Part shown: in pieces, positions 3,323 to 23,647 of the stretch | Layout: each line of letters opens with the position of its first letter | Position numbering within the stretch: position 1 is the stretch's first letter | Assembly (NCBI RefSeq): GCF_014196635.1 | Contig: NZ_JACIEB010000002.1 | Span: 1 to 64,000, forward strand | Source of the DNA: Sphingobium fontiphilum | GTDB taxonomy: Bacteria; Pseudomonadota; Alphaproteobacteria; Sphingomonadales; Sphingomonadaceae | Reading direction: 5' to 3' | DNA length: 64,000 nucleotides | The notes under the pieces: model-generated | Seen by the model: only the letters and a program-made list of their open reading frames with translations | Told to the model about the DNA's origin: nothing | Databases searched by the model: none | Program-made: the position numbers and the translations under genes

Positions 3323-3340
3323 GACCGAAGGTCCAATTGC
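3323..3340 (+). promoter_or_regulatory. Island regulon motif, copy 1 (upstream of exaC)
   Basis: GACCGAAGGTCCAATTGC lies 56 bp before the exaC start. It aligns without gaps to six other copies in the alcohol-oxidation island. The core reads as a direct repeat of two CCAA-like half sites seven bases apart. Confidence 0.6.
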
Positions 3341-3395
3341 CTCCCTGGCCCGCAATGCCATTTTCAACGCCAATTCCAATCAACCTGGGAGTAGG

Positions 3396-4919
3396 ATGAT
3401 GTTGCAACAGGCCATGGAGCGGTTTGCCGGCAAGACGCTGATCCGCGACACATATGAAAATTACATCGGCGGCCAGTGGGTCGCCCCGGCAGGCGGCGAA
3501 TATTTCGACAATATCTCGCCGGTGACCGGTCAGGTGGTGTGCAAGATCGCGCGTGGCGGCGCTGCCGATATCGAACTGGCGCTGGACGCCGCGCACAAGG
3601 CGAAGGACGCTTGGGCGAAGGCATCGCCGACCGAACGGTCGAACATCCTGCTGAAGATGGCCGACCGCATGGAGGCCAATCTCGACCTGATCGCGATGGC
3701 CGAAACCATCGACAACGGCAAGCCGATCCGCGAAACCACCCATGCCGACATTCCGTTGGCCATCGACCATTTCCGCTACTTCGCCGGCTGCGCCCGCGCG
3801 CAGGAAGGGTCGATCTGCGAAATCGACCATGACACCATCGCCTATCACTTCCATGAACCGCTGGGCGTCGTGGGTCAGATCATCCCCTGGAACTTCCCGC
3901 TGCTGATGGCCGTGTGGAAGCTGGCCCCGGCTCTGGCCGCTGGCAACTGCATCGTGCTCAAGCCCGCCGAACAGACGCCGATGTCGATCATGGTGCTGAT
4001 GGAAATCATCGGCGACCTGCTGCCGCCGGGCGTGCTGAACGTCGTCAACGGCTTTGGCGTCGAAGCGGGCAAGCCGCTCGCCAGCAACAAGCGCATCAGC
4101 AAGATCGCCTTTACAGGCGAAACCACCACCGGCCGGCTGATCATGCAATATGCGTCGGAAAACCTGACCCCGGTCACGCTGGAACTGGGTGGCAAGTCGC
4201 CCAACATCTTCTTCGAAGACGTGATGGACGCCGACGACGATTATTTCGACAAGTGCCTGGAAGGTTTTGCGATGTTCGCCCTTAACCAGGGTGAGGTCTG
4301 CACCTGTCCCAGCCGCGCGCTGATCCAGGAGTCGATCTTCGAAAAGTTCATCGACCGCGCCATTGCCCGCGTGAAGGCGATCAGGCAGGGCAGCCCGCTC
4401 GATCCGTCGACCATGATCGGCGCGCAGGCGTCGAACGATCAGCTCGAAAAGATCCTGTCCTATATCAGGATCGGCCTCGATGAAGGCGCAGAACTGCTGA
4501 CGGGCGGCGAACGCGCGAGCCTCGATGGCGAACTGGCCGAAGGCTATTATGTGACCCCGACCGTGCTGAAGGGCCACAACAAGATGCGGATTTTCCAGGA
4601 GGAGATCTTTGGCCCCGTCCTGTCGGTCACGACCTTCAAGGATGAAGCCGAAGCACTCGCCATCGCCAACGACACGCTCTATGGCCTGGGCGCGGGCGTG
4701 TGGACCCGCGATGGCAGCCGCGCCTATCGCATGGGCCGCGCGATCCAGGCGGGCCGCGTGTGGACCAACTGCTACCACGCTTACCCCGCCCATGCGGCGT
4801 TCGGCGGCTACAAACAGTCGGGCATCGGCCGCGAAAACCACAAGATGATGATGGATCATTATCAGCAGACCAAGAATCTGCTGGTCAGCTACAGCCCCAA
4901 GGCGCTGGGCTTTTTCTGA
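3396..4919 (+). CDS. exaC: NAD-dependent acetaldehyde/aldehyde dehydrogenase (ExaC/AcoD type)
   Basis: The 507-residue cytoplasmic enzyme oxidises aldehyde, probably acetaldehyde made by the PQQ alcohol dehydrogenase, to acid. Visible are the cofactor region ([23 protein letters not shown]), FTGETTTGR, the general base in LELGGKSPN (Glu263), and the catalytic Cys302 in [11 protein letters not shown]. This last motif is typical of the ExaC/AcoD subgroup, and the length is right for it. The start is the ATG at 3396 after GGGAGTAGG; an ATG at 3399 is equivalent. The longer frame from 3147 would overlap dinB and has no homologous N-terminus. It is followed by the DUF779 gene that often accompanies this enzyme. 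Confidence 0.93.
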
Positions 4920-5085
4920 TCGCGTCCTCCCCGTCGCCGGGCGTTTCCGCCCGACGGCCGGGAAACGCTATGGCTGTCCGGGTCGAAGGCTCTCTACTCC
5001 CTCTCCATCCTTCGACCGACGGCGGGCATCTTCCCGATGCCCGCCGTCTGGCATTTCACCGTCCCCATATTGCAAGGAGGTCGGC

Positions 5086-5481
5086 ATGACGGACGACATT
5101 CCCCCGCGCATTTTGGCTACGGCGCAAGCGGAGGCGCTGATAGCGCGGCTGACGACGCGCCACGGCCCGTTGATGTTTCACCAGTCCGGCGGCTGCTGCG
5201 ACGGCTCCGCGCCGATGTGCTTTGCGCGCGGCGAGTTCAGGGTCGGCGCGCAGGACGTGCTGCTCGGCCATGTCGCAGGCGATGTACCGGTTTGGATCGG
5301 CGCGGCGCAATTCGAATATTGGCGTCACACGCAAGTGACGATCGACGTCGTTCCGGGGCGGGGCGCGGGCATGTCGCTCGAAAGTCCCGAGGGGCAACGC
5401 TTCATCGTGCGGTCGCGCCTCTTTTCCGATGCGGAGAATCGCGCGCTGACGGCGGCGGGCGAACCGCCCCGTGGGGGCTGA
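5086..5481 (+). CDS. DUF779 protein, aldehyde dehydrogenase-associated
   Basis: This 131-residue protein of the DUF779 family has no known reaction. It has a conserved cysteine cluster (SGGCCDGSAPMCF, about residues 36-47) that could bind a metal or react with an electrophile, followed by a small beta-rich domain. Genes of this family are commonly found beside AcoD/ExaC aldehyde dehydrogenases, as here. A strong AAGGAGG precedes the ATG. There is no signal peptide, so it is cytoplasmic like ExaC. A role as an aldehyde-binding or accessory factor is inference only. Confidence 0.85.
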   Translation: MTDDIPPRILATAQAEALIARLTTRHGPLMFHQSGGCCDGSAPMCFARGEFRVGAQDVLLGHVAGDVPVWIGAAQFEYWRHTQVTIDVVPGRGAGMSLESPEGQRFIVRSRLFSDAENRALTAAGEPPRGG

Positions 5482-6812: not shown

Positions 6813-7955
6813 ATGACCTTATTGGCTCGCGGCATTGGATTCGCCTCCAGTCACGCCGCCGATCCGGTTCAGGCGATGGACGATGTCATGGCGCAGCTTG
6901 GCGATGAACCGCTGGCGGGCATGTTGATGTTCTGTTCCCACCGTTTTGATCGGGGCGATCTGGCCCGGGCCATCAACCTGCGCAGCGAAGGCGTGGTGAC
7001 CATCGGTTGCACCAGTTCGGGCGAACTGACGAACCATGGCTATGATCAGGACAGCCTGAGCGTCATCGGCTTCCCCGCGGATGGTTTCCGTTTGCTGTCC
7101 CAGCATTTCGACGATGTCGACAATTTCGATCCTGTTGCCGCGCGCGACGCGATCCGGACGCTTGTGGCGGTCGCCGAACGCGACAGCCGTCATCTGGGCG
7201 ACAAGGTCAATCATGTCGCCCTGTTCCTGGTCGATGGCCTGTCGCACAGCGAAGAATTGCTGACCATGACCATACAGGATGCGCTGGGAGACATTCCTTT
7301 GATCGGCGGGTCGTCGGGCGATGGCCTCATGTTCCGGGAAACCGCGATATTCGAAGGCGGCCGGTTTCAGACCCATGCCGGCGTCGTCGCCATCCTGTCA
7401 ACGCCGCGCCCGGTGCATGTGTTCAAGGCGCAGCATTACCGTCCGAGCGCGGAAAAGATGGTGGTGACCGGCGCCCTGCCGCATGATCGGATCGTCACCG
7501 AAATCAACGCTGAACCGGCCGCGCAGGAATATCTGCGCCTGGCCGGCCATGCAGGCGAGGAACTGGGCATAGAATTTTACGCCGCCCATCCGCCTATGGT
7601 CCGCGCGGGCGGCGAATATCATGTGCGCTCCATCCAGAGCGCCAATGCCGACGGCAGCCTGACATTCTATTGCGCCATAGATGAAGGCATCGTGCTGGCC
7701 GTGGGCGAACCGGTCGACCGGATCGATGGCATGAAAAAGCTGTTCACTGACATCGAAAGGCGCGTGGGCAAGGTCGACCGGATCATCGCCTTTGACTGCG
7801 TGCTCAACCGCATCGACGCCGAACAGCGCCAGATCGGCCGCTTGGTCTCCGAACTCTACGGCCGGCATCGGGTCATCGGCTTCAACACCTATGGCGAACA
7901 ATATCACGCCCTGCATGTGAACCAGACGTTCAGCGGGCTGGCCATCGGGCGATGA
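6813..7955 (+). CDS. FIST-domain sensory protein, NosP-like
   Basis: The 380-residue cytoplasmic protein has FIST_N (about residues 25-215; GCTSSGELTNHGYDQDSLSVIGF) and FIST_C (about 220-360; EQRQIGRLVSELYGRHRVIGFNTYGEQ). In Pseudomonas aeruginosa the FIST protein NosP binds haem and nitric oxide and controls the kinase NahK encoded next to it. Here the stop overlaps the kinase start by 4 bp (ATGA), so translational coupling and the same partnership are likely. Haem binding cannot be judged from sequence alone; small amino acids are another FIST ligand class. The start at 6813 follows a purine-rich GAGGGGATGAGGGG. Confidence 0.85.
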   Translation: MTLLARGIGFASSHAADPVQAMDDVMAQLGDEPLAGMLMFCSHRFDRGDLARAINLRSEGVVTIGCTSSGELTNHGYDQDSLSVIGFPADGFRLLSQHFDDVDNFDPVAARDAIRTLVAVAERDSRHLGDKVNHVALFLVDGLSHSEELLTMTIQDALGDIPLIGGSSGDGLMFRETAIFEGGRFQTHAGVVAILSTPRPVHVFKAQHYRPSAEKMVVTGALPHDRIVTEINAEPAAQEYLRLAGHAGEELGIEFYAAHPPMVRAGGEYHVRSIQSANADGSLTFYCAIDEGIVLAVGEPVDRIDGMKKLFTDIERRVGKVDRIIAFDCVLNRIDAEQRQIGRLVSELYGRHRVIGFNTYGEQYHALHVNQTFSGLAIGR

Positions 7956-10207
7956 GCGGCAAAGCCCGGCTTGCGCCGGAAGACCTTGACCCGGAAAAGG
8001 AAAGCCTGCGCGAGGAAGTGCGCAAGCTGCGCAAGATCAACGCGGCGCTGATGGACCGGGTCGAACGGTCGAGCGATATGGCCGGCAACGCCTTTGCGAT
8101 GTTCGAAACCGCGATCTCGCTGGAATCCAAGGTCCGCAAACGCACCGTCGAACTGGAGGACGCCCTGTCCCGGCTGGCGACGGCCAATGCCGATCTGGCG
8201 AAGGCCCATGCCGCCGCCGACGCCATGCGGATGCGCCTGCGCGACGCGATTGATTCCATCAACGAAGGCTTCGTGCTGTTCGATGCAGAGGACAAGCTTG
8301 TCCTGTTCAACGAGGCATATCTCGGCTTCTGGCCGGAAATCGCCGATCAGGTGGAGGAAGGCATGGCGTTCGACGCCATCGCCAAGCTGGCGGCGGCGCA
8401 GCACCGCCCCCCTGGCTCGATCGTCGGCCCTGATCGCTGGGTCTCCGATCGCCTCGCCCGCCACAGCGTCGCCAGCGGCGGCCATGTGCAGGCGCTGGCT
8501 GATGGCCGCTGGGTCCAGGTCAACGAGTTGCGGACCAGCGAGGGCGGCATTGTCGGCATCTATACCGACATTACCGAGGTCAAGGCGGAGGACGCTCGCA
8601 ACCGCGCTCGCGAACTGGCGGAACGCAACATCGTGTTGCAGGCGACGCTCGACAATCTGTCTGAGGGCGTGTGCCTGTTTGATGCCGAAGGGCGGCTGGC
8701 GGCCTGGAACGACGCATTGCAACGCTTGCTTGGCCTGCCCGCGGACTGGGGCCAGGGCGTTAGCACCCATGCCGATCTGATCGCATGGTGCCGCGGCGAA
8801 CTGGGTATGCAGGATGACGGCTGCCTCGACTGGCGCGGCGACCGTCGCCTGGGCGAACGAATCCAGCGTCGGGTGAACATCGATTCCCGCTGTTTCGAAG
8901 TGCGCAGCAACGCCATGGAACGGGGCGGTCAGGTGATCGGCTTTACCGACATCACCGACATGCTGCGCGCGCAGGCCAGTTTGCAGGAAACGGCCGAAAC
9001 GCTCGAGCGCCGCGTCGCGGAGCGGACAGCCGAACTGGTCGAGGTCAATTCCCGACTGGAAGGCGAAGTTGCCGAGCGGCGGCAGGTGGAGGCACAGTTG
9101 CTGGAAGCCAAGACCGTCGCGGAACGCGCCAATCTGTCGAAAACCAGCTTTCTGGCCGCCGCCAGCCACGACCTGTTGCAGCCGCTGAACGCCGCCCGCC
9201 TGTTCGTCGCCGCGCTGGCCGACCGTCGCCTCGCCCTGCCCACCCGGGCGCTCGTCAACCAGACGTCGACGGCGCTGGATTCGGTCGAGGACTTGCTGGA
9301 GGCGTTGCTCGAAATCAGCCGCCTCGACGCAGGGGCGATCCAGCCTGAAATATCCAATTTCCTGCTCGATCAGTTGATTGAAACATTGCGCGTCGAATTC
9401 GCACCGATGGCGCGATCAGCGGGCCTTGAACTGGTGGTGGAAAGCGGCCCCGCTTGGGTGCGGTCCGACATCCGCCTGTTGCGCCGCATCCTCCAGAATT
9501 TCGTTTCCAATGCGGTCCGCTATACCCAGCGCGGATCGGTGCGGGTGCGCTGCGCTGTGGGGTCGAGCCATGTCCGGGTCAGCGTGTCGGATACCGGCCC
9601 CGGCATCGCACCCGACAACCAGTTACTGATTTTCGAGGAATTCCGCCGGTTCGACACCCGTCAGGGCGGCAAAGGGCTGGGTCTGGCCATCGTCAAGCGC
9701 GCCAGCGACATGCTGCGCCATCCGATCCTGCTCGAATCCATGCCGGGGCGCGGATCGACCTTTTCCATCGACGTGCCGCGTGGCGAGCCCGTGCAGCAGG
9801 ACGGCGGACCGACCGATAGCGCCGGGCGCGACCGTTCCATGCGCGGCCTGTCGGTGCTGGTCATCGACAATGAACGCTCGATCCAGAGCGGAATGCGCAC
9901 ATTGCTGGAGGGTTGGGGCTGCCGCGTCACGGTCACCGCCAGCTATGACGAGGCCACGGCCAACTTCCCGCGCGAGAAAGCGCCCGATGTGGTGCTGGTC
10001 GACTATCATCTGAACAATGGCGAGACGGGCGACGAAACGATTGATCGACTGGCAGTCCATTTCGGCATGGCCGTGCGCGCAATCATGATTTCGGCGGACC
10101 GCGGCGAAGAATTGAAGGCCAGGCTCGACGAACGCGGCATCCCCCTTCTCAACAAGCCGGTAAAGCCGGCCCAGTTGCGCGCCCTGCTGCGCACCATGAC
10201 GGATTAG
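7952..10207 (+). CDS. Hybrid sensor histidine kinase/response regulator, NahK/ErcS'-like
   Basis: The 751-residue soluble kinase has a coiled coil (about 12-95) and two PAS domains with the motifs SINEGFVLFDAEDKLVLFN and NLSEGVCLFDAEGRLAAWN. A second coiled coil (about 345-395) leads to the HisKA motif ASHDLLQPLNAARLF with phospho-His406. The ATPase domain has NFVSNAVRYT, DTGPGI and GGKGLGLAIVKR. A C-terminal receiver has Asp684 in VVLVDYHLNNG and a lysine in NKPVKP. No membrane segment is present, so the signal is cytoplasmic, presumably delivered by the overlapping FIST protein. The convergent NarL-type regulator is the obvious output, possibly through a phosphotransfer protein not in the window. 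Confidence 0.9.
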   Translation: MSGKARLAPEDLDPEKESLREEVRKLRKINAALMDRVERSSDMAGNAFAMFETAISLESKVRKRTVELEDALSRLATANADLAKAHAAADAMRMRLRDAIDSINEGFVLFDAEDKLVLFNEAYLGFWPEIADQVEEGMAFDAIAKLAAAQHRPPGSIVGPDRWVSDRLARHSVASGGHVQALADGRWVQVNELRTSEGGIVGIYTDITEVKAEDARNRARELAERNIVLQATLDNLSEGVCLFDAEGRLAAWNDALQRLLGLPADWGQGVSTHADLIAWCRGELGMQDDGCLDWRGDRRLGERIQRRVNIDSRCFEVRSNAMERGGQVIGFTDITDMLRAQASLQETAETLERRVAERTAELVEVNSRLEGEVAERRQVEAQLLEAKTVAERANLSKTSFLAAASHDLLQPLNAARLFVAALADRRLALPTRALVNQTSTALDSVEDLLEALLEISRLDAGAIQPEISNFLLDQLIETLRVEFAPMARSAGLELVVESGPAWVRSDIRLLRRILQNFVSNAVRYTQRGSVRVRCAVGSSHVRVSVSDTGPGIAPDNQLLIFEEFRRFDTRQGGKGLGLAIVKRASDMLRHPILLESMPGRGSTFSIDVPRGEPVQQDGGPTDSAGRDRSMRGLSVLVIDNERSIQSGMRTLLEGWGCRVTVTASYDEATANFPREKAPDVVLVDYHLNNGETGDETIDRLAVHFGMAVRAIMISADRGEELKARLDERGIPLLNKPVKPAQLRALLRTMTD

Positions 10208-10295: not shown

Positions 10296-10943
10296 TCAGT
10301 CGTTGCCTTCAGCGATGAAATGGACGCGGTTGGCCTTGATGACCGCCTGGGTGCGGCTCAGCACGCCCAGCTTCTGCAAAATGGCCGACACATGCGCCTT
10401 TATCGTGGTCATCGACACGCCAAGGTCATGCGCGATCTGCTTGTTCAGGCGACCACGAACCAGATGGGCGAGCACGGTGCGCTGCTGCGGCGTCAGCGTT
10501 TCGATGCGGCGGTTGATGTCTTCCTCGTCAGGCGAAGGCGCAGCGGCCTCTCCCGTGGTTTCAGGCAGATAGATTTCGCCCGCAACGATGCGGTGCAGCG
10601 CTTGGACGATGCCGCTGCGCTTCATGGATTTGGGAATGAAGCCCGCCGCGCCGGCCGCCAGCGCCTCCTGAACGATGGCGCGATCGAAGGCGCCGGACAC
10701 CATGACAACGGGCAGGATCGGGAAGCGGGAGCGGAGCAGCCGCAATCCGTCGAGCCGACGGACATCGGGAATGTTGAGATCGAGCAGGACAAGGTCGAAA
10801 CTGTCCTGCTTTTCCAGCAAGGACACCGCTTCATCCAGGCTGGCGGCCTCCAGCACTTCGCAGGAATCGAAACTGATGGCGATCACACTGCGAAGGCCAT
10901 CGCGCACCAGTGGATGATCGTCGACGATCAAAACCCGTTCCAT
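10296..10943 (-). CDS. NarL/LuxR-type response regulator of the alcohol-oxidation island
   Basis: The 215-residue regulator has an N-terminal receiver (MERVLIVDDHPLVRDGL; phospho-acceptor Asp in LVLLDLNIPD; Lys in FIPKSMKRS) and a C-terminal LuxR helix-turn-helix (LTPQQRTVLAHLVRGRLNKQIAHDLGVSMTTIKAHVSAIL). It resembles the AgmR/ErbR/EraR regulators that switch on quinoprotein ethanol oxidation in pseudomonads. I chose the ATG at 10943 because the receiver begins there; starts at 10961 or 10973 would add 6 or 10 residues. It lies directly downstream of the PQQ dehydrogenase on the same strand. It is my candidate for binding the repeated promoter motif. Confidence 0.88.
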   Translation of the reverse strand: MERVLIVDDHPLVRDGLRSVIAISFDSCEVLEAASLDEAVSLLEKQDSFDLVLLDLNIPDVRRLDGLRLLRSRFPILPVVMVSGAFDRAIVQEALAAGAAGFIPKSMKRSGIVQALHRIVAGEIYLPETTGEAAAPSPDEEDINRRIETLTPQQRTVLAHLVRGRLNKQIAHDLGVSMTTIKAHVSAILQKLGVLSRTQAVIKANRVHFIAEGND

Positions 10944-11103
10944 GATCGCAGCGGCGCCCATTTCGTCGATCATCTCCCCTGCCCTATCCCGATCATCGAT
11001 CAAAGCACGGGGCGTGGCAAGGCGCATCGCGACCGGGGCGATGCCCGCCGCCGCCTGTTGTCCCTGATGTCCACGCCCCATGATGATCATGCCGACCGCC
11101 TCC

Positions 11104-14257: not shown

Positions 14258-14335
14258 CTCCATCATCCTCTACCCAGAAAAACTGAACGTCCCTGTTGGG
14301 GATGATGTTAGGCGAAGCGGGCGGGCGACCCCATT

Positions 14336-14353
14336 GACCATTGGTACAATGCC
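14336..14353 (+). promoter_or_regulatory. Island regulon motif, copy 3 (between pedF and the propeller gene)
   Basis: GACCATTGGTACAATGCC lies in the 168-bp divergent promoter region. It matches the other copies at GACC, GGT and CAAT but differs in the AA core. It is the most symmetrical copy (CATTG...CAATG) and could serve both directions. Confidence 0.45.
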
Positions 14354-14425
14354 GTCGCGGGCAAGCGCCCTGTAGACCGCGAATAATCCCAAGGGATGAA
14401 AAGCCGATCTGGAGAGGATTGCCCG

Positions 14426-15394: not shown

Positions 15395-15421
15395 CAAAGG
15401 CGGCATGATCCCAAGGAACGA

Positions 15422-15439
15422 GAACCAAAGTTCAATTTA
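15422..15439 (+). promoter_or_regulatory. Island regulon motif, copy 4 (upstream of the porin gene)
   Basis: GAACCAAAGTTCAATTTA matches the copy upstream of the PQQ dehydrogenase at 14 of 18 positions and lies about 97 bp before the porin start. A further CCAAGG half site sits just upstream (around 15410). Confidence 0.55.
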
Positions 15440-15536
15440 GCGTCCCCGCAACCGGGCCCATCCTCCCACGCAGGCCGAAACGGCCGAAGACGAAACGGCC
15501 AGCATTCAGACGGCCGACAATTTGAGGGAGGATATT

Positions 15537-16919
15537 ATGAAGAAGGCAAGGCTCTTCCATGGAGCGGCGATGGCGTTGATGCTGGCCGCAAGCGCAACGC
15601 CGGCAATGGCGGGCACGACCGCCGACCTTCTCAAGCGACTGCACGAAAAGGGCATCCTCACCGACGAGGAATATCAGGAATTGCTGAAGGGCGAGGCCGC
15701 GGAAACGGCGCAGGCCCCGGCCGTAACCCCGGACGCTTCGGGCGGCAAGCCGCTGGTCCGCATGGCCGATAGCGGCATCGGTCTTGAAATGGGCGACGTC
15801 ACGCTCAAATTTTCGGGTTCGGTCAACGGCTTCTATGTCCATGACAATGGCGAGGCGCCCAACGCTACCAATACCGTGGTCGGCGGCGTCGCAACGGTGG
15901 GCGGCAACACGTCGGCCATCCGCAACGGTCTGCTGCCTGGTTTCCTGAAGGTGGAAGCGACCACCAATCAGGGCGGCTGGGATGTCGGCGCGCATTTCGG
16001 CATGTATCCCGGCATCAACTCGGTCAGCTATGTCGGCGGCGGCGCCAACAGCGGCGGCAACCCCCGCGCGTTGCAAACGGCTGGGATCGATTTCCGTCAG
16101 ACATACCTGACCTTCGGCCGGGCAGGCTTTGGCGAGGTGAAGATCGGTCGCGACATCGGCCTGTTCGGTTCGGAAGCGATCCTCAACGACATCACCCTGC
16201 TGTCGTCGGGCACGCCGGCGGGCAATGTCGCGCCGTCCAACACGACGCTGGGTCGCATCGGCGTGGGCTATATCTACACCGACTTCCAGCCGCAGATCAC
16301 TTACACGACGCCCCATTTCGGCGGCTTCACCGCCAGCGTCGGCATCTTTGAACCGCTGTCCTCGCTGACCGGTCCGGCCGAATCGAACAAGCAGCCCGGT
16401 TTCCAGGCCAAGTTCGTCTATGATGGCCAGTTCGGCGACGTCGCGACACGCCTGTGGCTGTCGGGCATCACCCAGAAGCATAATGTGATTGTCGGCCCCG
16501 ACTATACCGGCTGGGGCTGGGACGCGGGCGCCAAGGTCACCTTTGGTCCGGTGACCTTCGTCGGCACCTATTATGACGCTTCGGGGCTGGGTACGACCGC
16601 CCTCAACCTGTTCGACACCGATGGCGCTGGCGACAAGCGCGACAGCCATGGCTTCTACCTCCAGAGCCTTGCCAGCTTCGGCAAATTCTCGGTTGGCGGC
16701 AGCTATGGCGAGAGCAATCTCGACCATGCCAATGTCGCCGACGCGCTGGCCAATCCCGCCCTGGTGTCGAAGAACAGCAGTTGGGTCGGTCAGGTCCGCT
16801 ATGGCCTGAACAGTTGGGTCACGCTGCTGGGCGAATATATCAGCACCACGTCGAAGGCGCATAACGGCAACAAGGCGTCGTCCGACGCCATTGCAGCCGG
16901 AGCCATCCTCTTCTTCTGA
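15537..16919 (+). CDS. Outer-membrane porin
   Basis: The 460-residue protein has a signal peptide (about 1-25, ending AMA-G). A short helical segment with LLKRLHEKGILTDEEYQELL is followed by a beta-barrel made of alternating aromatic strands (VTLKFSGSVNGFYVHDN, IGVGYIYTDFQPQITYTTP). It ends in ILFF with the terminal Phe needed for barrel assembly. It resembles proteobacterial porins with an N-terminal coiled segment. GAGGGAGG precedes the ATG at 15537; an upstream GTG/ATG frame only lengthens the signal peptide. Its place between the propeller and TonB genes and the upstream motif suggest uptake of substrate for the island. Confidence 0.83.
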   Translation: MKKARLFHGAAMALMLAASATPAMAGTTADLLKRLHEKGILTDEEYQELLKGEAAETAQAPAVTPDASGGKPLVRMADSGIGLEMGDVTLKFSGSVNGFYVHDNGEAPNATNTVVGGVATVGGNTSAIRNGLLPGFLKVEATTNQGGWDVGAHFGMYPGINSVSYVGGGANSGGNPRALQTAGIDFRQTYLTFGRAGFGEVKIGRDIGLFGSEAILNDITLLSSGTPAGNVAPSNTTLGRIGVGYIYTDFQPQITYTTPHFGGFTASVGIFEPLSSLTGPAESNKQPGFQAKFVYDGQFGDVATRLWLSGITQKHNVIVGPDYTGWGWDAGAKVTFGPVTFVGTYYDASGLGTTALNLFDTDGAGDKRDSHGFYLQSLASFGKFSVGGSYGESNLDHANVADALANPALVSKNSSWVGQVRYGLNSWVTLLGEYISTTSKAHNGNKASSDAIAAGAILFF

Positions 16920-16922
16920 TCC

Positions 16923-16940
16923 GACCCAAGGACCAATGTC
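16923..16940 (+). promoter_or_regulatory. Island regulon motif, copy 5 (upstream of the first TonB receptor)
   Basis: GACCCAAGGACCAATGTC lies 3 bp after the porin stop and 97 bp before the receptor start. It shows two clear CCAA half sites seven bases apart. It is upstream of the hairpin listed next. Confidence 0.55.
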
Positions 16941-17036: not shown

Positions 17037-19049
17037 ATGAAGACCATCATTTTGCCTGCCATGTTGTTGACCGCACCCGCCGCTGCTTGGGCGCAGGCGC
17101 CAGCGGATGACGGTTCAGACACGCCCATCATCGTTACGGGCGCAGGCCTGCCGCTGCCGCCGGGGACGCCCGCCTACGGGTCCGTGGTGATCGCGCGCGA
17201 GCGGCTGGAAAACAGCGCGTCGGGCCGTATCGAGACAGTTCTGGGCGACGTCGCCGGATTCCAGCAGTTCCGCCGCTCCGACAGCCGGTCAGCCAATCCG
17301 TCGGCGCAAGGGGCGACACTTCGCGCGCTGGGCGGCAATGCGTCCAGCCGGACGCTGGTGCTGCTCGACGGCGTGCCGATGGCGGACCCGTTTTTCGGTT
17401 ATATTCCCTTTTCCGCGCTGGTGCCCGACCGCCTGTCGGTGGTGCGGGTGACGCGCGGCGGCGGCATTGGCGCTTTCGGCGCTGGCGCGGTCGCCGGGTC
17501 GATCGAACTGGCCAGCGCCACGCGCGACCAGTTGCCCAATTTCGCCGCCAGCGCCTTTTACGGCAGCCGCGACGCGACCGAAATGTCGGGCGCGCTGACC
17601 GCCGATCTGGGCGGCGGCTATGCGACGCTGTCGGGGCGGTGGGACCGTGGCGACGGCTTCCAGACAACGCCAGGCGACCAGCGCACCGCCGCGACCGTTC
17701 CGGCCGCCTATGACGGCTGGTCGACCAATTTGCGCGCGGTCGCGTCCATTTCGGCCCATTCCGAACTGCAATTCCGCGCCACCCTGTTCCGCGACGAACG
17801 CACGCTGCGCTTTTCAGGCGCGGACAGCAGCAGCGAAGGCCAGGACGCCAGCATCCACTATATCCATCGCGGCGCATGGCAGGTCGATGCCCTCGCCTAT
17901 ATTCAATCGCGCAATTTCTCCAACATCGTTATTTCCTCCTCGTCCTTCCGCAAATCGCTGGATCAGCGCAACACGCCGTCGACCGGCGTCGGCGGCAAGA
18001 TCGAGCTGCGCCCGCCGGTGGGTGAGGATCATGTGCTGCGGCTGGGCGCGGACACCCGCTTCGCCACGGGCGATATGTTCGAAAACGCCTATAATGCGGG
18101 CGATCCAGCCAATCCGCTCACCTCGCTGCGCCATGCGGGGGGCGACCAGATCACCACCGGCGTCTTTGCCGAGGATGACTGGACCATTGGCAACCTCGTC
18201 CTAACGGGTGGCGTCCGCGCCGACCATTGGTCGATCAGCAACGGCTTCTATCAGCAGGTGACGCCAGCGGGCGCGATCACACGGAACGACCGCTATGCCG
18301 ACCGGTCCGACTGGCAGTTTTCGGGCCGGGCGGGCGCGCTCTATCGCTTCAGCGACGCGGTCGCCGTCCGCGCGGCGGGCTATACCGGCTTCCGCCTGCC
18401 GACGCTCAATGAGCTGTATCGGCCCTTCACCGTTTTCCCCATCACAACGCGCGCCAACGCCGCGCTCACGCCCGAAAAGCTGAAAGGCGCGGAAGCCGGA
18501 ATTGACCTGACCCCCCTGCCCGGCCTGACCCTGTCCGCCACCGGTTTCTACAACCGGCTGGACGACGCCATCGCCAATGTGACCATCGACGCCGTCACGC
18601 GCGAGCGGCGCAATGTCGACGCCATCGTCGCCAAGGGCGTGGAACTGACCGCCAGCGGCCGGATGGGCGCGATGTTGTTGTCGGCATCCTATGCCTATAG
18701 CCATTCGACGGTGAAGGCGCCGGGTGAGCCCTTCGACGGGCTGACCCCCAACCAAAGCCCGCGCCACGCCGCCAGTGCGACGCTGGCCTGGGAGCCGACC
18801 CACGGCCCCGCCCTGTCGGCGACGCTGCGTTATGTTTCGAAGCAATATGAGGACGACCTGCAAAGCGATGTCCTGCCCGACGCGCTAACGCTGGACGCGG
18901 TGGCGCGGATGCCCGTCGGCCATGGCGTCACGCTGGTCGCGCGCGGCGAAAACCTGTTCGACGAAACCGTTGTAACGCGCAATGCGGGCGGCTCCATGGA
19001 CCTGGGCACGCCGCGCACCTTGTGGATCGGCGTGCGCTTCGCCCGCTGA
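17037..19049 (+). CDS. TonB-dependent outer-membrane receptor (BtuB-like)
   Basis: The 670-residue receptor has a signal peptide (MKTIILPAMLLTAPAAAWAQA), a TonB-box-like DTPIIVTGAG, and a plug domain (about 50-160). The plug includes ATLRALGGNASSRTLVLLDGVPMADPF and GAFGAGAVAGSIEL. A 22-strand barrel follows, ending GTPRTLWIGVRFAR. Substrate is not evident. Its location in a quinoprotein island with a lanthanide-type dehydrogenase makes a metal chelate, a lanthanophore or PQQ candidate cargo, by inference only. GAGGGGATCGCC precedes the ATG. Confidence 0.85.
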   Translation: MKTIILPAMLLTAPAAAWAQAPADDGSDTPIIVTGAGLPLPPGTPAYGSVVIARERLENSASGRIETVLGDVAGFQQFRRSDSRSANPSAQGATLRALGGNASSRTLVLLDGVPMADPFFGYIPFSALVPDRLSVVRVTRGGGIGAFGAGAVAGSIELASATRDQLPNFAASAFYGSRDATEMSGALTADLGGGYATLSGRWDRGDGFQTTPGDQRTAATVPAAYDGWSTNLRAVASISAHSELQFRATLFRDERTLRFSGADSSSEGQDASIHYIHRGAWQVDALAYIQSRNFSNIVISSSSFRKSLDQRNTPSTGVGGKIELRPPVGEDHVLRLGADTRFATGDMFENAYNAGDPANPLTSLRHAGGDQITTGVFAEDDWTIGNLVLTGGVRADHWSISNGFYQQVTPAGAITRNDRYADRSDWQFSGRAGALYRFSDAVAVRAAGYTGFRLPTLNELYRPFTVFPITTRANAALTPEKLKGAEAGIDLTPLPGLTLSATGFYNRLDDAIANVTIDAVTRERRNVDAIVAKGVELTASGRMGAMLLSASYAYSHSTVKAPGEPFDGLTPNQSPRHAASATLAWEPTHGPALSATLRYVSKQYEDDLQSDVLPDALTLDAVARMPVGHGVTLVARGENLFDETVVTRNAGGSMDLGTPRTLWIGVRFAR

Positions 19050-19054
19050 CCGCC

Positions 19055-19072
19055 GACCCAAAGTAGCATGGA
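19055..19072 (+). promoter_or_regulatory. Island regulon motif, copy 6 (upstream of the second TonB receptor)
   Basis: GACCCAAAGTAGCATGGA lies in the 82-bp gap between the two receptor genes, 59 bp before the second start. The left half fits the consensus; the right half is degenerate. It is the weakest copy together with copy 3. Confidence 0.4.
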
Positions 19073-19131
19073 GGCAGCCCCGCCCCCTTCCTAGCATCCC
19101 GAAAATCGAGAACGATAATCGGAGGATGCGC

Positions 19132-21447
19132 ATGAACGGGATTGCCGCCCTGCTGGCCGGAACGGCCGGTTTGTTATTGGCGGGGCAAGCGGCGGCGCAA
19201 AAGCAGGACAACGTCGCCAATGCCCAGACGATCATCGTGACCGCGCCGGGCGGCGCCATCGACGTCGACGATGCGCTGGCCGTTTCCGCCGACGACATCG
19301 GCCGGGCGGGCGCACCCGATCTGCTGGCCGCTCTGACCCGCACCATGGCGGGCGTGACCCTTCAGGACGCGCAGGGCAATCCATGGCAACCCAATCTCGT
19401 CTATCGCGGCTTCACAGCCTCCCCGCTTCAGGGGCAGGCGCAGGGGCTGGCCGTCTACCTCGACGGCGCCCGCTTCAACCAGCCCTTTGGCGATACGGTG
19501 GGCTTCGACCTGTTGCCGCAAGCCGCGATCCGCAAGGCTTCGATCCTCGACGCCAGCCCGGTCTATGGCCTCAACGCGCTGGGCGGGTCGATGCTGGTCG
19601 AAACCCGCAACGGCCGAAGCGATCCGGGGCTGGAGGCGAGCCTGACCGGCGGGCGCTTTGATGCGCGGCAGGCCAGCATCGCGGGCGGCTTCGCCAGCGG
19701 CGCGTTCAGCGCCTTTGGCGCGTTCGAATATCGGCATGAGGATGGCTGGCGCGATTATTCGCCCTCCACGCTTTACAACGGCTATCTGGACCTGGGCTTC
19801 GACACCGCGACTGGCGGCCTGCACATGAAGGTCATTGCGGCAGACACCGACCTGACCGGTAATGGCGTCGCCCCGGTCGAATTGCTGGCGGCCGACCGGC
19901 GCGCTGTCTTCACCTGGCCCGACAACAGCCGCGCTCGCTATGAAAGGATCAGCCTCCATCCGTGGGTCGCGCTGTCCGACCGCACCCGAATCGAGGGTAC
20001 GCTCTATGCCCAACGCCTGAAGCTGCGGTCGCTGAACGGCGACGCCGCCGACATCGAAGGGTGCGAGGACGAGGATGCACAGGGCTATCTTTGCCTCGAA
20101 ACCGTCGGCGCGAGCGACGATGAGGAGGACCAGGCGGTGCTGACCAACGCGGCCGGCAATCCCATAGCCGACATGCTGGATGGCGAGGATTATGGCGTGC
20201 TCAATCGCGGCCGCACCGTGACAAAGGCGATGGGCGCATTGTTCCAGATCATCGACGAACGCCCGATGCTGGCGGGCGACAACCATTTCGCTCTGGGCGT
20301 CAGCTATGATGGCGGCCGGACGCGCTTTGATACATCGGTTGAACTGGGCGCAATGACCGAGGACCGCAGCGTCGAGGGGCTGGCCGCGATGATCGTGCAG
20401 GCCGATGGCGCCATCGCACCGGTCGGTCTTGTCGCCCATACTGACTATTGGGGCGTGTTCGCGCAGGATCGCCTGCCCATCGCGCCCGGCCTGTCGGCGG
20501 AACTGGGCCTGCGCTACAATCATGCGCGCATTGAACTCAAGGACCAGATCGGCGCCGCGCTCAACGGCCTGCACCATTTCCGTCGCCTCAACCCCGGCGT
20601 CGAACTGGATTATGCGGTTAGTGAAGGATTGAACCTGCGCGCGGGCTATGCCGAAAGCAACCGCGCGCCGACCCCGGCGGAACTGTCCTGCGCCGACGAA
20701 AATGCGCCTTGCAGCCTCGCCAATTTCTTCATCGCCGATCCGCCGCTGAGGCAGGTGGTGGCAAAGAGCTGGGAAGCGGGCGCGCGCGGCCATGCCAGGC
20801 TGGGCGGCTTTCGCATCGACTGGCTGGCCTCGGCCTATCGCACGCGCAACCGCAACGATATTCAGTTCGTCGCCTCAAACATTCGCGGCCGCGCCTATTT
20901 TCGCAATATCGGCGCGACCCGGCGACAAGGGGTCGAACTGGGCCTGAAGGCGTTGCGCGGCGGCCTTTCCGCCGGGCTGAGCTATGCCTTCACCGATGCG
21001 CGTTATCTGGACGACCTGAAGCTTTCGAGTCCCGCCAATCCAGCGGCGGACGACGATGGCGCAATTGGGGTGGCAAAGGGCGACCATCTGCCCGGCATCC
21101 CGCACCACAGCGCGACGCTCAGCCTCGACTATGCGGCCAGGGGGTGGTCGGTCGGCGGCGAGCTGATCGCCCGGTCCGGCCAGTATCTTGTCGGTGACGA
21201 GGGCAACGACAATCCCAAAATCCCCGGCTACGTCATCGTCAATCTGCGCGGTAGCATCACCCTCCTGCCCGGCGTCAGCCTGTTCGGCGAAGTCCGCAAC
21301 GCCTTCAACCGGCGCTATGCGACCTTCGGCACATTCAGCGAAGTGGACGAGGTCGACCTGGCCGAGGCGCCGGGCGCATCCGATCCGCGCGCCTATGGCC
21401 CCGGCGCGCCGCGCCGCTGGTATGGAGGGGTGAGGGCCAGATTCTGA
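19132..21447 (+). CDS. TonB-dependent outer-membrane receptor with acidic Cys-flanked loop
   Basis: The 771-residue receptor has a signal peptide (ending AAA-Q), a TonB-box-like QTIIVTAPGG, and a plug containing PNLVYRGFTASPLQGQAQGLAVYLDGARFNQ split over two strands. A barrel follows, ending RWYGGVRARF. A predicted outer loop near residues 311-335 is very acidic and bracketed by Cys311 and Cys321 (CEDEDAQGYLC, then SDDEEDQ). Such a loop could bind a hard metal ion, which is speculative. The ATG at 19132 has GGAGG six bases upstream; the ATG at 19126 abuts it. DUF1330 follows 28 bp downstream. Confidence 0.87.
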   Translation: MNGIAALLAGTAGLLLAGQAAAQKQDNVANAQTIIVTAPGGAIDVDDALAVSADDIGRAGAPDLLAALTRTMAGVTLQDAQGNPWQPNLVYRGFTASPLQGQAQGLAVYLDGARFNQPFGDTVGFDLLPQAAIRKASILDASPVYGLNALGGSMLVETRNGRSDPGLEASLTGGRFDARQASIAGGFASGAFSAFGAFEYRHEDGWRDYSPSTLYNGYLDLGFDTATGGLHMKVIAADTDLTGNGVAPVELLAADRRAVFTWPDNSRARYERISLHPWVALSDRTRIEGTLYAQRLKLRSLNGDAADIEGCEDEDAQGYLCLETVGASDDEEDQAVLTNAAGNPIADMLDGEDYGVLNRGRTVTKAMGALFQIIDERPMLAGDNHFALGVSYDGGRTRFDTSVELGAMTEDRSVEGLAAMIVQADGAIAPVGLVAHTDYWGVFAQDRLPIAPGLSAELGLRYNHARIELKDQIGAALNGLHHFRRLNPGVELDYAVSEGLNLRAGYAESNRAPTPAELSCADENAPCSLANFFIADPPLRQVVAKSWEAGARGHARLGGFRIDWLASAYRTRNRNDIQFVASNIRGRAYFRNIGATRRQGVELGLKALRGGLSAGLSYAFTDARYLDDLKLSSPANPAADDDGAIGVAKGDHLPGIPHHSATLSLDYAARGWSVGGELIARSGQYLVGDEGNDNPKIPGYVIVNLRGSITLLPGVSLFGEVRNAFNRRYATFGTFSEVDEVDLAEAPGASDPRAYGPGAPRRWYGGVRARF

Positions 21448-21804: not shown

Positions 21805-22767
21805 TCAGTTGGAGGGAAGATCGACGCGCGGCAACAGCCGGCCCTCCAGCGCGGGATAAAGGTGCGACACGCTGCGCTGCAATTCATAGCGCGCCAGCTT
21901 CAACGAAGCGAAGCGATCGGGAATGGCGATCATCCCCGCCTCCACCATGTCGAGCCCGGATTGCACCGCCGCGCTCAACGCCGGTTCCAGCCAGTCGATC
22001 CAGTCGCGGGTCTGGTCGATGGCGGTAACGCCTTCGGGGTCGAGCGGACCATGGCCGGGCAGCATCCCGCCATGTTTCTCGCTCTTCAGCCGGTCCAGAC
22101 TGGCGCGCCATAAGGCAAGGTCCGCATTGGGCGTGCTGGGCGCGCGATCATGGAACACCAGGTCGCCGCCGATCATCAGGCCCGTCGTCTCGTCGACCAG
22201 CGCCAGATCCGCGTCGCTATGGCCCGAAAGGCTCAGCAGGCGCAGGCCCCGCCCGCCAAATTCCTCATGCGCCGTCGTAATCGCCAACCCCGGCACGGCA
22301 ATATCAGTGCCCCGCATCCAGTCGCCCAAAATGCGATACATGGAATCGGAATAACCGCCGCCATCCCGCCGCATCGCCGTAATCGTGCCGGGCAGAGCCG
22401 CAACGATGGCGGGATCGAACGCCGCAATGCCCATGCCATGATCGGGGTGGATGTGCGTCACATAAACGCGGATCACCGGCTTGCCCGTCAATTGTTCGGC
22501 AACGGATTTCAGCTTCGCCGCATAGCGGATGGAAGGCCCGCAATCGCACAGAACCGCGCCTGCCGGTGTTGCGATGATGGCGATGTTGGCGATCGCCCCG
22601 CCATTGTCGAAAGCGATGGGTTCGTCAGCGCCGCGCACCATCCATATGCCATCCGCGACGGCGACAGGGTTGATGGCGTAATCGTGGCCCGCGCGGCCGA
22701 CGCCGGCAGTGAAGGTTGCGGCGGCGCCCATCATCATAGCGCGGCGGGACAGCCATATGCGCGCCAT
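21805..22767 (-). CDS. Quinoprotein relay system zinc metallohydrolase (SoxH-like)
   Basis: The 320-residue metallo-beta-lactamase-fold hydrolase has a twin-Arg-like leader (MARIWLSRRAMMMGAAATF). The metal motif THIHPDHG places His105, His107, Asp109 and His110, with further ligands in SGHSDADLAL and LPGHGPL. It belongs to the SoxH-related hydrolases encoded next to PQQ dehydrogenases. The frame also opens at TTG 22773, overlapping the soxYZ-like stop; I prefer the ATG at 22767. By analogy to glyoxalase II it may cleave a thioester on the neighbouring thiol carrier, but the substrate is unproven. Confidence 0.87.
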   Translation of the reverse strand: MARIWLSRRAMMMGAAATFTAGVGRAGHDYAINPVAVADGIWMVRGADEPIAFDNGGAIANIAIIATPAGAVLCDCGPSIRYAAKLKSVAEQLTGKPVIRVYVTHIHPDHGMGIAAFDPAIVAALPGTITAMRRDGGGYSDSMYRILGDWMRGTDIAVPGLAITTAHEEFGGRGLRLLSLSGHSDADLALVDETTGLMIGGDLVFHDRAPSTPNADLALWRASLDRLKSEKHGGMLPGHGPLDPEGVTAIDQTRDWIDWLEPALSAAVQSGLDMVEAGMIAIPDRFASLKLARYELQRSVSHLYPALEGRLLPRVDLPSN

Positions 22768-22769
22768 CG

Positions 22770-23585
22770 TCAAGGCGCCGACGCCAGCGGGTGGGGAGAT
22801 TGTTTCGCCACGGCCACTCGCGCGCGATAGTCGCGACCGTTGGTATCGCGCGCCTCGACGGTCAGCATCTCGCCGGGTTGCGCGGCGGGCATCAGCGTGA
22901 TGGCCGGATCCTCCGCCACGCTGGCCCAGATTTCCATCGTCCCCAGGGGCTCGCGGCCGACGCCCTTCACGCTCAACGCCTCAAGATGATAGGTCGCGAT
23001 ATTTTCGACCAGGCCCGTGTCCATGGGATGACGGAAACTGAGCCGCAACCGGGCGTTGCCGTCAGCCACAGGCCATGCCTCCCCGCGTATCTCGCCCAGA
23101 TGCTCGGCCCAGTCGCCCTTCACCCGGCTGACCGGCGGGGCCGAACAGCCGCCGCCAGCCGCATCGACCCATTCGCCCGAAACCAGCCATTCCCCGCTCG
23201 CCAACTGCACCGCACCGCGCACCGGCGTTCGTTGGTCCAGCTTGATGCGGGTGGCGATATAGGGTTCCGCTCCCTCCGGCCGATAATCGATGGCGACGGG
23301 TATGGGATTGAGATCGGCGAACAGGATGATCCGCTTCACCCCTTCGATGCCGCGCGCGTCGATCGCGACCGGAAAGGCGCGCTGGTTCTCCGCGATCATC
23401 GGGTGCTGCACCTTGACGCGCGGATCGAAGCGCACCGGATCGGCGCCGAACAATGTCGCCGCATGAGCATTCCACATGGGCGACCCCAGGGGATCGACCG
23501 GAGCCGTGCGCGCATGAGCGGCCGATTGCGCTGCGGCCATGAGGGTCAGCGCAAGCATGATGGAACGGCGGTCGCCTCGTTTCAC
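22770..23585 (-). CDS. Quinoprotein dehydrogenase-associated SoxYZ-like carrier protein
   Basis: The 271-residue periplasmic protein has a signal peptide (about 1-25, ending AHA-R). It fuses a SoxY-like domain (about 40-155) with a SoxZ-like domain (about 165-265; RLSFRHPMDTGL, VEARDTNGRDYRARVAV). The SoxY-type carrier cysteine is Cys147 in AAGGGCSAP. Sox carriers hold intermediates on this cysteine. This fused type is known only from gene neighbourhoods with quinoproteins, and its cargo is undefined. The metallohydrolase gene overlaps or abuts its stop. A near-consensus regulon motif lies 45 bp upstream. Confidence 0.87.
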   Translation of the reverse strand: MKRGDRRSIMLALTLMAAAQSAAHARTAPVDPLGSPMWNAHAATLFGADPVRFDPRVKVQHPMIAENQRAFPVAIDARGIEGVKRIILFADLNPIPVAIDYRPEGAEPYIATRIKLDQRTPVRGAVQLASGEWLVSGEWVDAAGGGCSAPPVSRVKGDWAEHLGEIRGEAWPVADGNARLRLSFRHPMDTGLVENIATYHLEALSVKGVGREPLGTMEIWASVAEDPAITLMPAAQPGEMLTVEARDTNGRDYRARVAVAKQSPHPLASAP

Positions 23586-23629
23586 ATCCTTGTCCCTTGG
23601 TGCTGGTCTAAAGCCTTGGGTCTTGCGCT

Positions 23630-23647
23630 ACCATTGGACCTTGGAGT
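23630..23647 (-). promoter_or_regulatory. Island regulon motif, copy 7 (between soxYZ-like and CX3CW genes)
   Basis: On the minus strand ACTCCAAGGTCCAATGGT carries the full core CCAAGGTCCAATGG. It is 45 bp upstream of the soxYZ-like start and 26 bp upstream of the divergent CX3CW gene, so it may control both. Confidence 0.6.

Follow-up and report, generated by a model that had tools for sequence, protein, structure and literature searches.

A box of 18–20 bp precedes most promoters of an alcohol-oxidation island in Sphingobium fontiphilum, with little variation in its spacing to a −10-like element. We studied it in a 64,000-nt stretch of the genome, here called "the window", and in related genomes. 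Sequence comparison strongly supports a regulon made up of the box-bearing island genes. The sites are quite probably binding boxes of the NarL-type response regulator, similar to AgmR and PedR1, that is encoded within the island at 10296–11090. The island genes are as follows ("over cut-off" refers to the model named).

3402–4919, plus: exaC, acetaldehyde dehydrogenase (NF050026, 941 bits, over cut-off)
6813–7955, plus: NosP-like protein (NF041558, 402 bits, below the cut-off of 450)
7952–10207, plus: NahK/ErcS-type hybrid histidine kinase (NF041832, over cut-off; NF041831, 543 of 1500 bits)
10296–11090, minus: NarL/LuxR-type response regulator, AgmR-like, the proposed binder (Response_reg and GerE domains; ErdR model 174.5 bits, cut-off 390)
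11104–12858, minus: PQQ-dependent alcohol dehydrogenase, adh (TIGR03075, over cut-off)
12964–13830, minus: ABC-type substrate-binding protein (matches to amino-acid binding proteins, below cut-off)
13829–14266, minus: cytochrome c-550 PedF (TIGR04494, over cut-off)
14396–15394, plus: PQQ-associated beta-propeller protein (TIGR03866, over cut-off)
15522–16919, plus: porin, a name from the first-pass annotation (no NCBIfam match; in Pfam only SHOCT, below cut-off)
17037–19049, plus: TonB-dependent receptor 1
19126–21447, plus: TonB-dependent receptor 2, distant PqqU relative (NF041535, 91.2 bits, cut-off 1200)
21805–22773, minus: quinoprotein relay zinc metallohydrolase (SoxH-related), downstream of soxYZ (TIGR04558, over cut-off)
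22770–23585, minus: SoxYZ-like carrier (TIGR04557, over cut-off)
23673–24242, plus: CXXCW motif protein (start chosen by eye; TIGR03865 over cut-off for 23694–24242)
24280–24462, plus: pseudoazurin relic, C-terminal part only (Cys of KCMPHYS replaced by Gly)

Sequence of the box and its sites in the window

Motif discovery used 124 orthologous promoters from other sphingomonads; the window and Sphingobium were left out of the resulting matrix. The consensus mTnGnmCCAAGGTnCAATTG was recovered de novo with 21.9 bits, compared with 10.2 bits from shuffled promoters, and its occupancy of 0.98 is the program's ceiling. Control promoters also yield a motif, of 20.3 bits, that has no relation to the box. 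In the window, the matrix identifies the following sites, given as 20-nt spans (E-values are those of the box model, genome-wide).

3320–3339, plus: exaC promoter (26.9 bits; E 0.109; 62 bp to the exaC start)
12929–12948, minus: PQQ alcohol dehydrogenase promoter (21.1 bits; E 0.368; cATAGtCT then at −10 spacing)
14331–14350, minus: between the divergent pedF (cytochrome c550) and propeller genes (18.8 bits)
15419–15438, plus: porin promoter (23.8 bits; E 0.553)
16920–16939, plus: first TonB receptor promoter (15.2 bits)
19052–19071, plus: degenerate box, second TonB receptor (8.4 bits, background level)
23631–23650, minus: between the divergent soxYZ-soxH and CXXCW genes (20.8 bits; E 1.91)
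24239–24258, plus: 3' end of the CXXCW gene, before the pseudoazurin relic (18.1 bits)
38650, minus: borderline box upstream of an acyl-CoA dehydrogenase (14.4 bits)

The first-pass annotation had listed seven sites, placed 25–100 bp upstream of island genes and of no others. Their sequences are present as listed, with a shift of one base for two minus-strand sites, and the measured gaps from box to start codon are ~22 to 97 bp. The matrix supports six of them and leaves 19055 at background level; a Markov null (200 replicates) gives 0.365 matches per 64 kb at ≥14 bits and 5.6 at ≥8.4 bits. The site listed as 14336 on the plus strand does mark a box, one that reads better on the minus strand, since the plus-strand reading at 14333 scores 11.8 bits versus 18.8. 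The exclusion of other genes does not fully hold, with 24239 and the borderline 38650 as exceptions. For the weak 19055 site, the orthologues of the second TonB receptor gene in L004, L012, L013, L016 and L019 have boxes of 15.6–27.2 bits at a similar distance, while L022 has none.

The consensus printed in the same annotation, GACCNAAGGTYCAATKG, is exact at 3323 (plus) and 12929 (minus) and approximate at the other five sites, with two mismatches at 16923, three at 15422 and 23631 (minus), and four at 14336 and 19055. Because the window holds 15 matches to it at ≤4 mismatches, two of them overlapping (14331/14336), 14336 and 19055 do not stand out by GACCNAAGGTYCAATKG alone. Across the whole genome, its 17-mer has 39 matches at ≤3 mismatches versus 20 for the reversed pattern, which makes it too weak as a genome test, and the matrix was used instead. 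Nine of the 39 places have no locus; among the 25 off-island places that do, one reaches ≥15 matrix bits at the matched place (L108, 19.3).

An imperfect inverted repeat, ATTGnACC-nn-GGTnCAAT, describes the box best, a preference that falls short of a settled assignment. The dyad exceeds a column-permutation null (P = 0.007), as does a direct repeat of period 7 (P = 0.003). When only sphingomonad sites are considered, the two repeats are equally significant; in the porin sites the direct repeat scores higher, and at the adh and porin sites the dyad is not the best reading. By contrast, the dyad is strongest in the divergent pedF promoters (0.56 complementary) and in the Pseudomonas-type and Magnetospirillum sites, and on these grounds we set aside the direct repeat as the whole story. 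In place of the direct-repeat core proposed in the first-pass annotation, an inverted rather than a purely direct repeat is the preferred description.

Conservation and specificity of the box

Conservation was assessed in a held-out Sphingobium group (the window, L004–L019, L022 and L054), with a threshold of ≥14 bits. Of the 85 promoters that represent seven island genes, 74 have a box, as opposed to 0 of 60 control regions (those of nosP, nahK, the substrate-binding protein and the response regulator). By gene, the counts are 18/18 for adh, 18/18 for pedF, 14/14 for the porin, 6/6 for soxYZ and 8/10 for exaC; with the window counted, they are 5/7 for the second TonB receptor and 5/12 for the first. 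For the TonB receptors, the box is largely a feature of this group; beyond it, 2/22 relatives of the first receptor and 3/14 of the second have one at this threshold. The porin upstream region was represented by 50 loci, window included.

Genome scans with the box model scored 150 of the 203–530 candidates per genome. In the home genome, where 150 of 265 first-look candidates were scored, four matches have E ≤ 10, and all are island sites. Within the stretches fetched from that genome, two off-island sites score like island sites; one precedes a cytochrome c gene (C6:180574) and the other another TonB receptor gene (C4:122545). In 22 related genomes, the model has 34 matches at E ≤ 0.5. Thirty were fetched: 25 lie in island loci, three before soxYZ/CXXCW genes, one before a cytochrome c gene and one by a TonB-like frame. 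In Azospirillum, the adh promoter lacks the box and other promoters have it.

The matrix was also run over 1,054,403 bp from 55 related loci, giving 249 matches at ≥16 bits. Most (230) lie within 260 bp upstream of mapped genes, eight of these being inside the end of the propeller gene and one upstream of nosP; two more are inside the CXXCW gene and 17 elsewhere. Since many of these loci supplied training promoters, the informative part of the scan is the rarity of matches elsewhere. Fifteen of the 17 were translated, and all stand before pseudoazurin, class-I cytochrome c or porin genes. Indeed, in relatives the box precedes intact pseudoazurin genes as well as cytochrome c genes. The relic in the window, identical to the L007 pseudoazurin at 32 of 61 residues, is the only TIGR02375 match in its genome, below cut-off.

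Several of the originally listed sites match the printed consensus poorly, as they would if AT-rich promoter stretches had been picked by eye and resembled one another by chance. The independent de novo recovery, the held-out conservation and the genome-wide specificity make this barely credible overall; it is refuted for six of the seven sites and may hold for 19055. Two results would have refuted the first-pass reading, a motif equally frequent before unrelated genes and a lack of conservation in orthologous promoters; within the reach of the scans described above, it withstood both. The claim that the porin, the TonB receptors and the thiol-relay genes belong with quinoprotein oxidation in one regulon is supported by the sequence comparisons, the second TonB receptor's own site being weak.

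Placement in promoters and proposed activation

A −10-like consensus lies 19–26 bp past the box, with a spacing shared by 49 adh promoters, and the box probably overlaps the −35 element. An element that abuts and overlaps the presumed −35 element at near-constant spacing to the −10 might itself be an extended core promoter, the signature of a sigma factor rather than an activator site. This is very improbable, given that the best matches fall almost only on one functional gene set and that both orientations occur, with 12 of 37 exaC boxes reversed. An activator site is the preferred reading. A phosphorylated regulator dimer would occupy about −51 to −34, with its midpoint near −42.5 and an overlap with the −35 element, and may act as a class II activator. 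An alcohol signal from the NosP/NahK-type kinase, or from another kinase, would trigger activation. Genes for the dehydrogenase and its cytochrome would then be switched on, along with those for the aldehyde dehydrogenase, the porin, the outer-membrane receptors and the SoxYZ/SoxH/CXXCW relay; pseudoazurin and a lipoprotein cytochrome c would join them in relatives or at other places in the genome.

The likely binder

The regulator at 10296–11090 is encoded beside the NosP-like protein (402 of 450 bits), the NahK-type hybrid kinase and the PQQ dehydrogenase, the AgmR/PedR1-type arrangement, and a relative of it was mapped in 71 of 80 island loci. A box common to adh, pedF/exaB and exaC is found in the window, its relatives and Pseudomonas-type genomes. 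In the latter, ten of which entered the cluster comparison, a similar box, CTACTACC-nn-GGTAGTAG, stands upstream of adh, pedF/exaB, exaC and pqqA; it has 17.8 bits, and three low-information motifs (9.6–9.7 bits) exceed it in likelihood in that search. In Pseudomonas putida KT2440, AgmR is reported to activate both the pqq operon and the core genes of the ped cluster (PMC12997753, in part), and PedR1 is described as required by pedE, pedI and pedF (PMC13390443, in part). The related box, together with this control of ped and pqq genes, makes the NosP/NahK-linked, AgmR-like regulator the likely binder, and we infer that it binds the box. Synteny and the box of Pseudomonas-type ped clusters thus favor the first-pass proposal that the linked NarL-type regulator is responsible. 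The same portion of PMC13390443 has PedR2 acting on pedE, pedI and pedF as well, and AgmR therefore need not be the reader of each Pseudomonas-type box. In the consulted parts of PMC9927353, PMC12997753, PMC13390443, PMC8402216, PMC8041468, PMC12051241, PMC9765439 and the others cited here, we found no letters of an AgmR box in print. DAP-seq site maps exist for 55 Pseudomonas response regulators (Trouillon et al. 2021, GSE179001, according to part of PMC12051241), and the Pseudomonas-type box may therefore already be known.

The window regulator is ~40–43% identical to NahK-linked regulators. A tree of 46 chosen rows keeps three groups apart: the regulators of the island, the AgmR clade of NahK-linked proteins (100/100) and the CrbR clade (96/81). 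Its backbone is weak; the island and AgmR clades are not firmly sisters, and the alphaproteobacterial fork has 80/83.

Could the box instead be the target of the CrbR/ErdR paralogue whose gene lies next to acs (G000:C2:288548), placing alcohol oxidation in an acetate-utilization regulon with an ACTU-type box? The two proteins are of the same subfamily, with ErdR model scores of 168.8 bits for the paralogue and 174.5 for the window regulator, both below cut-off. The ACTU motif, in the portion of PMC5715377 consulted, lies in the acs promoter, where its inverted repeat spans −52 to −36, the position proposed here. By eye, palindromes are seen 67 to 88 bp upstream in acs promoters L170–L174; their core resembles ACCAAGGT/ACCAAAGT. 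What makes this reading unlikely is that acs promoters lack the box: the genome's own scores 6.7 bits, the best of 30 family loci, own included, reaches 11.1, and motif discovery on acs promoters yielded at most 11.2 bits. CrbR proteins, moreover, form their separate clade, whereas the relative mapped in most island loci is that of the window regulator. The CrbR-type neighborhood (an SLC5-type kinase and acs) is absent at the window regulator and belongs to a second regulator, L136 (the SLC5 part by eye). CrbR was accordingly set back as the binder.

Distinctly unlikely, too, is a regulator from outside the NarL/LuxR family that is encoded elsewhere and co-occurs with the island. Loci L063, L065, L068 and L069 would fit it, having boxes and no regulator mapped within the fetched stretch. 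Against it stand the related box before AgmR-controlled genes in Pseudomonas-type genomes, a dyad that suits a dimeric LuxR-type domain, and again the 71 of 80 loci. The linked AgmR-like regulator remains our preferred binder.

PQQ supply and the TonB receptors

The AgmR/PedR1-type control of PQQ biosynthesis is not seen here. A search of the home genome for PqqC came up empty, and PQQ is therefore probably imported. PqqC over cut-off was absent from 34 of the 37 island-bearing Sphingomonadales genomes searched, whose completeness is unstated. Near PqqC, the best box in five sphingomonad records has 12.0 bits, pqqA not being located there. Alphaproteobacterial PqqC loci gave none at ≥14 bits, a weak negative, as pqqA was recognized in two of 20 loci, neither of them alphaproteobacterial.

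The only solved structures that TonB receptor 2 matched at E ≤ 0.001 are of YncD/PqqU (E ~1e-14). It was rejected as a true PqqU on its NF041535 score and its signature residue: in a weak alignment, with the position counted by eye, Tyr99 of PqqU aligns with Gln, and Arg304 and Arg365 fall between two aligned stretches. In the part consulted, a survey finds PqqU largely absent from Alphaproteobacteria, which it reads as mainly PQQ producers (PMC12124388).

Because the box that precedes pqqA in Pseudomonas-type genomes here stands before TonB receptors, one of them divergent and PqqU-like, and a porin, we tentatively entertain a further reading, somewhat less probable than its opposite. The AgmR-type regulon may have been kept and its PQQ-synthesis branch replaced by cofactor acquisition, such that a PQQ-auxotrophic, probably lanthanide-type oxidizer induces cofactor or metal import with the enzyme. 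The regulator and the box arms would have changed together (TACT to ATTG), with the ACC-nn-GGT core kept.

Implications and comparison with known systems

The box offers a sequence handle on the whole periplasmic oxidation system, tying together genes linked so far mainly by neighborhood. Off-island members are predicted from it, namely pseudoazurin in relatives and, in the home genome, a lipoprotein cytochrome c, and it singles out outer-membrane receptors as candidates for taking up PQQ or lanthanides. The PQQ source of island-bearing Sphingomonadales is now testable, given how many lack PqqC over cut-off, and the step from Pseudomonas-type to sphingomonad-type box is a tractable case of regulator–site co-evolution.

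Among known systems, PqqU (YncD), the PQQ importer described in part of PMC12124388, is matched structurally by TonB receptor 2, in a genome that seems to need external PQQ; the receptor differs in scoring far below the curated cut-off and in having Gln where, by eye, the signature Tyr99 aligns. The CrbS/CrbR (MxtR/ErdR) system with its ACTU motif shares the LuxR/NarL subfamily and an inverted repeat, at roughly −52 to −36, before a sigma-70 promoter, but controls different genes (acetate regulon); its likeness to the box is judged here on position and symmetry (PMC5715377, in part). RpuS/RpuR at the mctP promoter, again an alphaproteobacterial one, likewise pairs a regulator of the LuxR type with a short repeat, although there the repeat is direct, spans −80 to −43 and serves a pyruvate transporter operon (PMC9100948, in part). 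The AgmR/ErbR/PedR1 regulon of Pseudomonas has the same NosP–NahK–regulator neighborhood, the same targets (PQQ alcohol dehydrogenase, PedF/ExaB cytochrome and ExaC/PedI aldehyde dehydrogenase) and an inverted-repeat box with an ACC-nn-GGT core; some Pseudomonas-type clusters also contain SoxYZ and CXXCW relatives, as the sphingomonad island does. The two differ in the arms of the box, ATTG/CAAT in sphingomonads versus TACT/AGTA in the Pseudomonas type, and in its reach, since the sphingomonad box is also found on porin, TonB receptor, pseudoazurin and lipoprotein cytochrome c genes.

A box shared by most island promoters

Island genes were located in 80 loci related to that of Sphingobium fontiphilum, whose genome (3.41 Mb in 19 contigs) contains the window as G000:C2:1-64000 and whose PQQ dehydrogenase has its closest named relative in Sphingobium ummariense (94% identity). 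De novo search of 124 regions upstream of adh (the PQQ dehydrogenase gene), exaC, the propeller gene, porin and soxYZ, all from non-Sphingobium sphingomonads and with the window left out, recovered mTnGnmCCAAGGTnCAATTG at 21.9 bits, with an occupancy of 0.98, the program's ceiling. The identical procedure gave 10.2 bits on shuffled sequences. Control regions upstream of nahK, sbp, the response-regulator gene and nosP (n = 102) yielded a 20.3-bit motif, probably conserved coding sequence, so high information alone is no proof; that motif is unrelated to the box, which was absent from the control result.

With this independent matrix, the best-scoring window sites are 3320, 15419, 12929, 23631, 14331, 24239 and 16920. 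A Markov null predicts, per 64 kb, 0.365 matches scoring ≥14 bits and 5.6 scoring ≥8.4 bits. The first-pass annotation had listed seven sites under a printed 17-mer. Six are among these top matches and 24239 is an addition, but the tonB2 site scores 8.4 bits and, given 5.6 such matches expected by chance, is unsupported on its own; the 17-mer fits exactly at only two of the seven sites, and the remaining five show two to four mismatches. Support for the regulon is strong, while the printed consensus and the tonB2 site require correction. There is also a borderline match:

38650-38669, minus strand: 14.4 bits, flanked by a TetR-like and an acyl-CoA dehydrogenase gene

Specificity and conservation

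The 55 sphingomonad loci among the 80 (1,054,403 bp; the other 25 are not sphingomonad) hold 249 matches at ≥16 bits, of which 230 lie ≤260 bp upstream of mapped genes, including eight that fall within the propeller gene at its end and one before nosP. Many of these loci supplied training promoters, so the informative part is how little else is matched: two sites within the CXXCW gene and 17 elsewhere. The neighbors of 15 of the 17 (all except those in L009 and L030), translated and identified by eye, are six pseudoazurins, eight class-I cytochromes c and one porin. The L007 pseudoazurin exceeds the TIGR02375 cut-off, the L011 porin is cut by the locus end, and the L033 cytochrome c is readable only in a shifted frame, as in L027. 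A 74-site model run on the home genome gave four matches at E ≤ 10, every one an island site, with 150 of 265 candidates scored. Across 22 related genomes, the box model, which contains sites from genomes like those scanned, gave 34 matches at E ≤ 0.5, with three genomes lacking any. Thirty were fetched: 25 fall in island loci, three before soxYZ/CXXCW, one before a lipoprotein cytochrome c and one beside a TonB-like frame.

Orthologous promoters bear out the proposed regulon in the Sphingobium group (the window, L004-L019, L022 and L054, with a few records that do not bear the name Sphingobium, Rhizorhabdus among them), which was kept out of training. At ≥14 bits, every promoter of adh (18/18), pedF (18/18), porin (14/14) and soxYZ (6/6) has a box, compared with 0/60 for nosP, nahK, sbp and the regulator. 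Boxes are less regular at exaC (8/10), tonB2 (5/7) and tonB1 (5/12); outside the group they precede tonB1 in 2 of 22 relatives and tonB2 in 3 of 14. Promoters without a box in these counts are true misses.

Promoter architecture

The adh promoters have a −10-like ATAGgCT 19 to 25 bp beyond the end of the box, and those of exaC and porin have a weaker CA...T one base further out; 12 of 37 exaC boxes are in reverse orientation. The terminal TTG of the box suits a −35 element, the spacer being 16-17 bp, and we infer that the box covers about −51 to −34. PMC5715377 places the ACTU motif of CrbR at −52 to −36.

The box fits both a dyad with its axis between positions 9 and 10 (0.459 complementary pairs vs 0.248 when the columns are permuted, P = 0.007) and a period-7 direct repeat (0.401 vs 0.233, P = 0.003). 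Sites at pedF show the dyad best (0.56); another axis is slightly better at adh sites (0.45 vs 0.43), and the direct repeat is better at porin sites (0.43 vs 0.37). The Magnetospirillum box is ATTGGACAAAGGTCCAAT.

Sites outside the island and a pseudoazurin relic

Matrix scores outside the island cover the fetched home-genome stretches only:

G000:C6:180574 (L135:1075-1756): 21.3 bits, ~50 bp before a lipoprotein class-I cytochrome c
G000:C4:122545 (L137:3046): box-like, 19.3 bits, immediately upstream of a further TonB receptor gene
G000:C3:136315 (L103:2828): weak, 13.1 bits, ~100 bp upstream of a cbb3 oxidase gene identified by eye as ccoN-like

The cytochrome c at the first site resembles box-bearing cytochromes of Novosphingobium and Erythrobacter. 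The cbb3 oxidase could plausibly act as terminal oxidase in this pathway; the weak site before it may be due to chance.

The additional site at 24239 is explained by the C-terminal pseudoazurin remnant behind it (box and relic, 24239-24462). The relic is identical to the L007 pseudoazurin at 32 of 61 residues and has Gly for the conserved Cys; the home genome gives no other pseudoazurin match. Its box looks intact, and several relatives retain both gene and box.

PQQ supply and the metal of the dehydrogenase

Despite the PQQ dehydrogenase island, no PqqC (TIGR02111) turned up in the home genome; the same search, as a positive control, found it in 5/5 non-sphingomonad genomes. PqqC is above cut-off in two of 45 genomes of the home family (weak in one) and in 3 of 37 island-bearing named Sphingomonadales (weak in one), leaving 34 without PqqC over cut-off; at least one genome belongs to both sets. 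The island-bearing L055 and L058 have no PqqC, and ten others all have it. Among solved structures, TonB2 matches only YncD/PqqU at E ≤ 0.001; its assignment as PqqU was rejected, with a score below the curated cut-off and the Tyr99 signature missing.

Asp-Phe-Asp in a PQQ dehydrogenase is generally taken as a sign of a lanthanide enzyme. The window dehydrogenase carries this motif (HDGWDFDG), which suggests that it, too, uses a lanthanide.

The candidate reader and known systems

Two strong members of the ErdR/AgmR subfamily are encoded in the home genome, and neither reaches the curated cut-off. One is the island regulator; the second, with its neighboring kinase, is CrbR/CrbS:

G000:C2:286522-292658 (L136): acs, CrbR-type regulator, and hybrid kinase with an SLC5-like N-terminus

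The box is not present in acs promoters. Those of L170-L174 contain palindromes with a ACCAAGGT-like core and differing arms. A tree built from 46 selected rows keeps three groups separate, namely the regulators of the island, the NahK-linked clade with AgmR and the clade of CrbR; its backbone is weak. Judging from sequence, the island regulator is the likely reader of the box, as first proposed.

Ten genomes with NahK, here termed Pseudomonas-type, were taken as a link to known systems; in eight NahK scores above the curated cut-off, and all eight belong to one family. Across 139 intergenic stretches taken from these ten loci plus L078, L079, L081 and L083, the most informative de novo motif was CTACTACCAAAGGAGTAG (17.8 bits), which is dyadic though symmetry was not forced; competing motifs reach ≤10.0 bits, and three of them exceed it in likelihood. 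A refined matrix with symmetry imposed found 33 distinct sites. For 28 of these a mapped gene lies ≤600 bp away, and most stand 95 to 130 bp upstream of adh, pedF/exaB or exaC. Sites 3′ of exaC stand before pqqA-like peptides in the five loci inspected (L200, L202, L203, L205 and L209), with those of L203 and L205 reaching no more than 9.8 bits under the sphingomonad matrix; L213 is a sixth case among Pseudomonas-type and allied genomes. Similar sites lie 3′ of exaC in L201 and L204. In Pseudomonas putida, AgmR/PedR1 controls adh, pedF/exaB, exaC and pqqA-type genes, according to PMC12997753 and PMC13390443. Because the Pseudomonas-type box stands at genes under AgmR/PedR1 control, the sphingomonad box would be its diverged counterpart.
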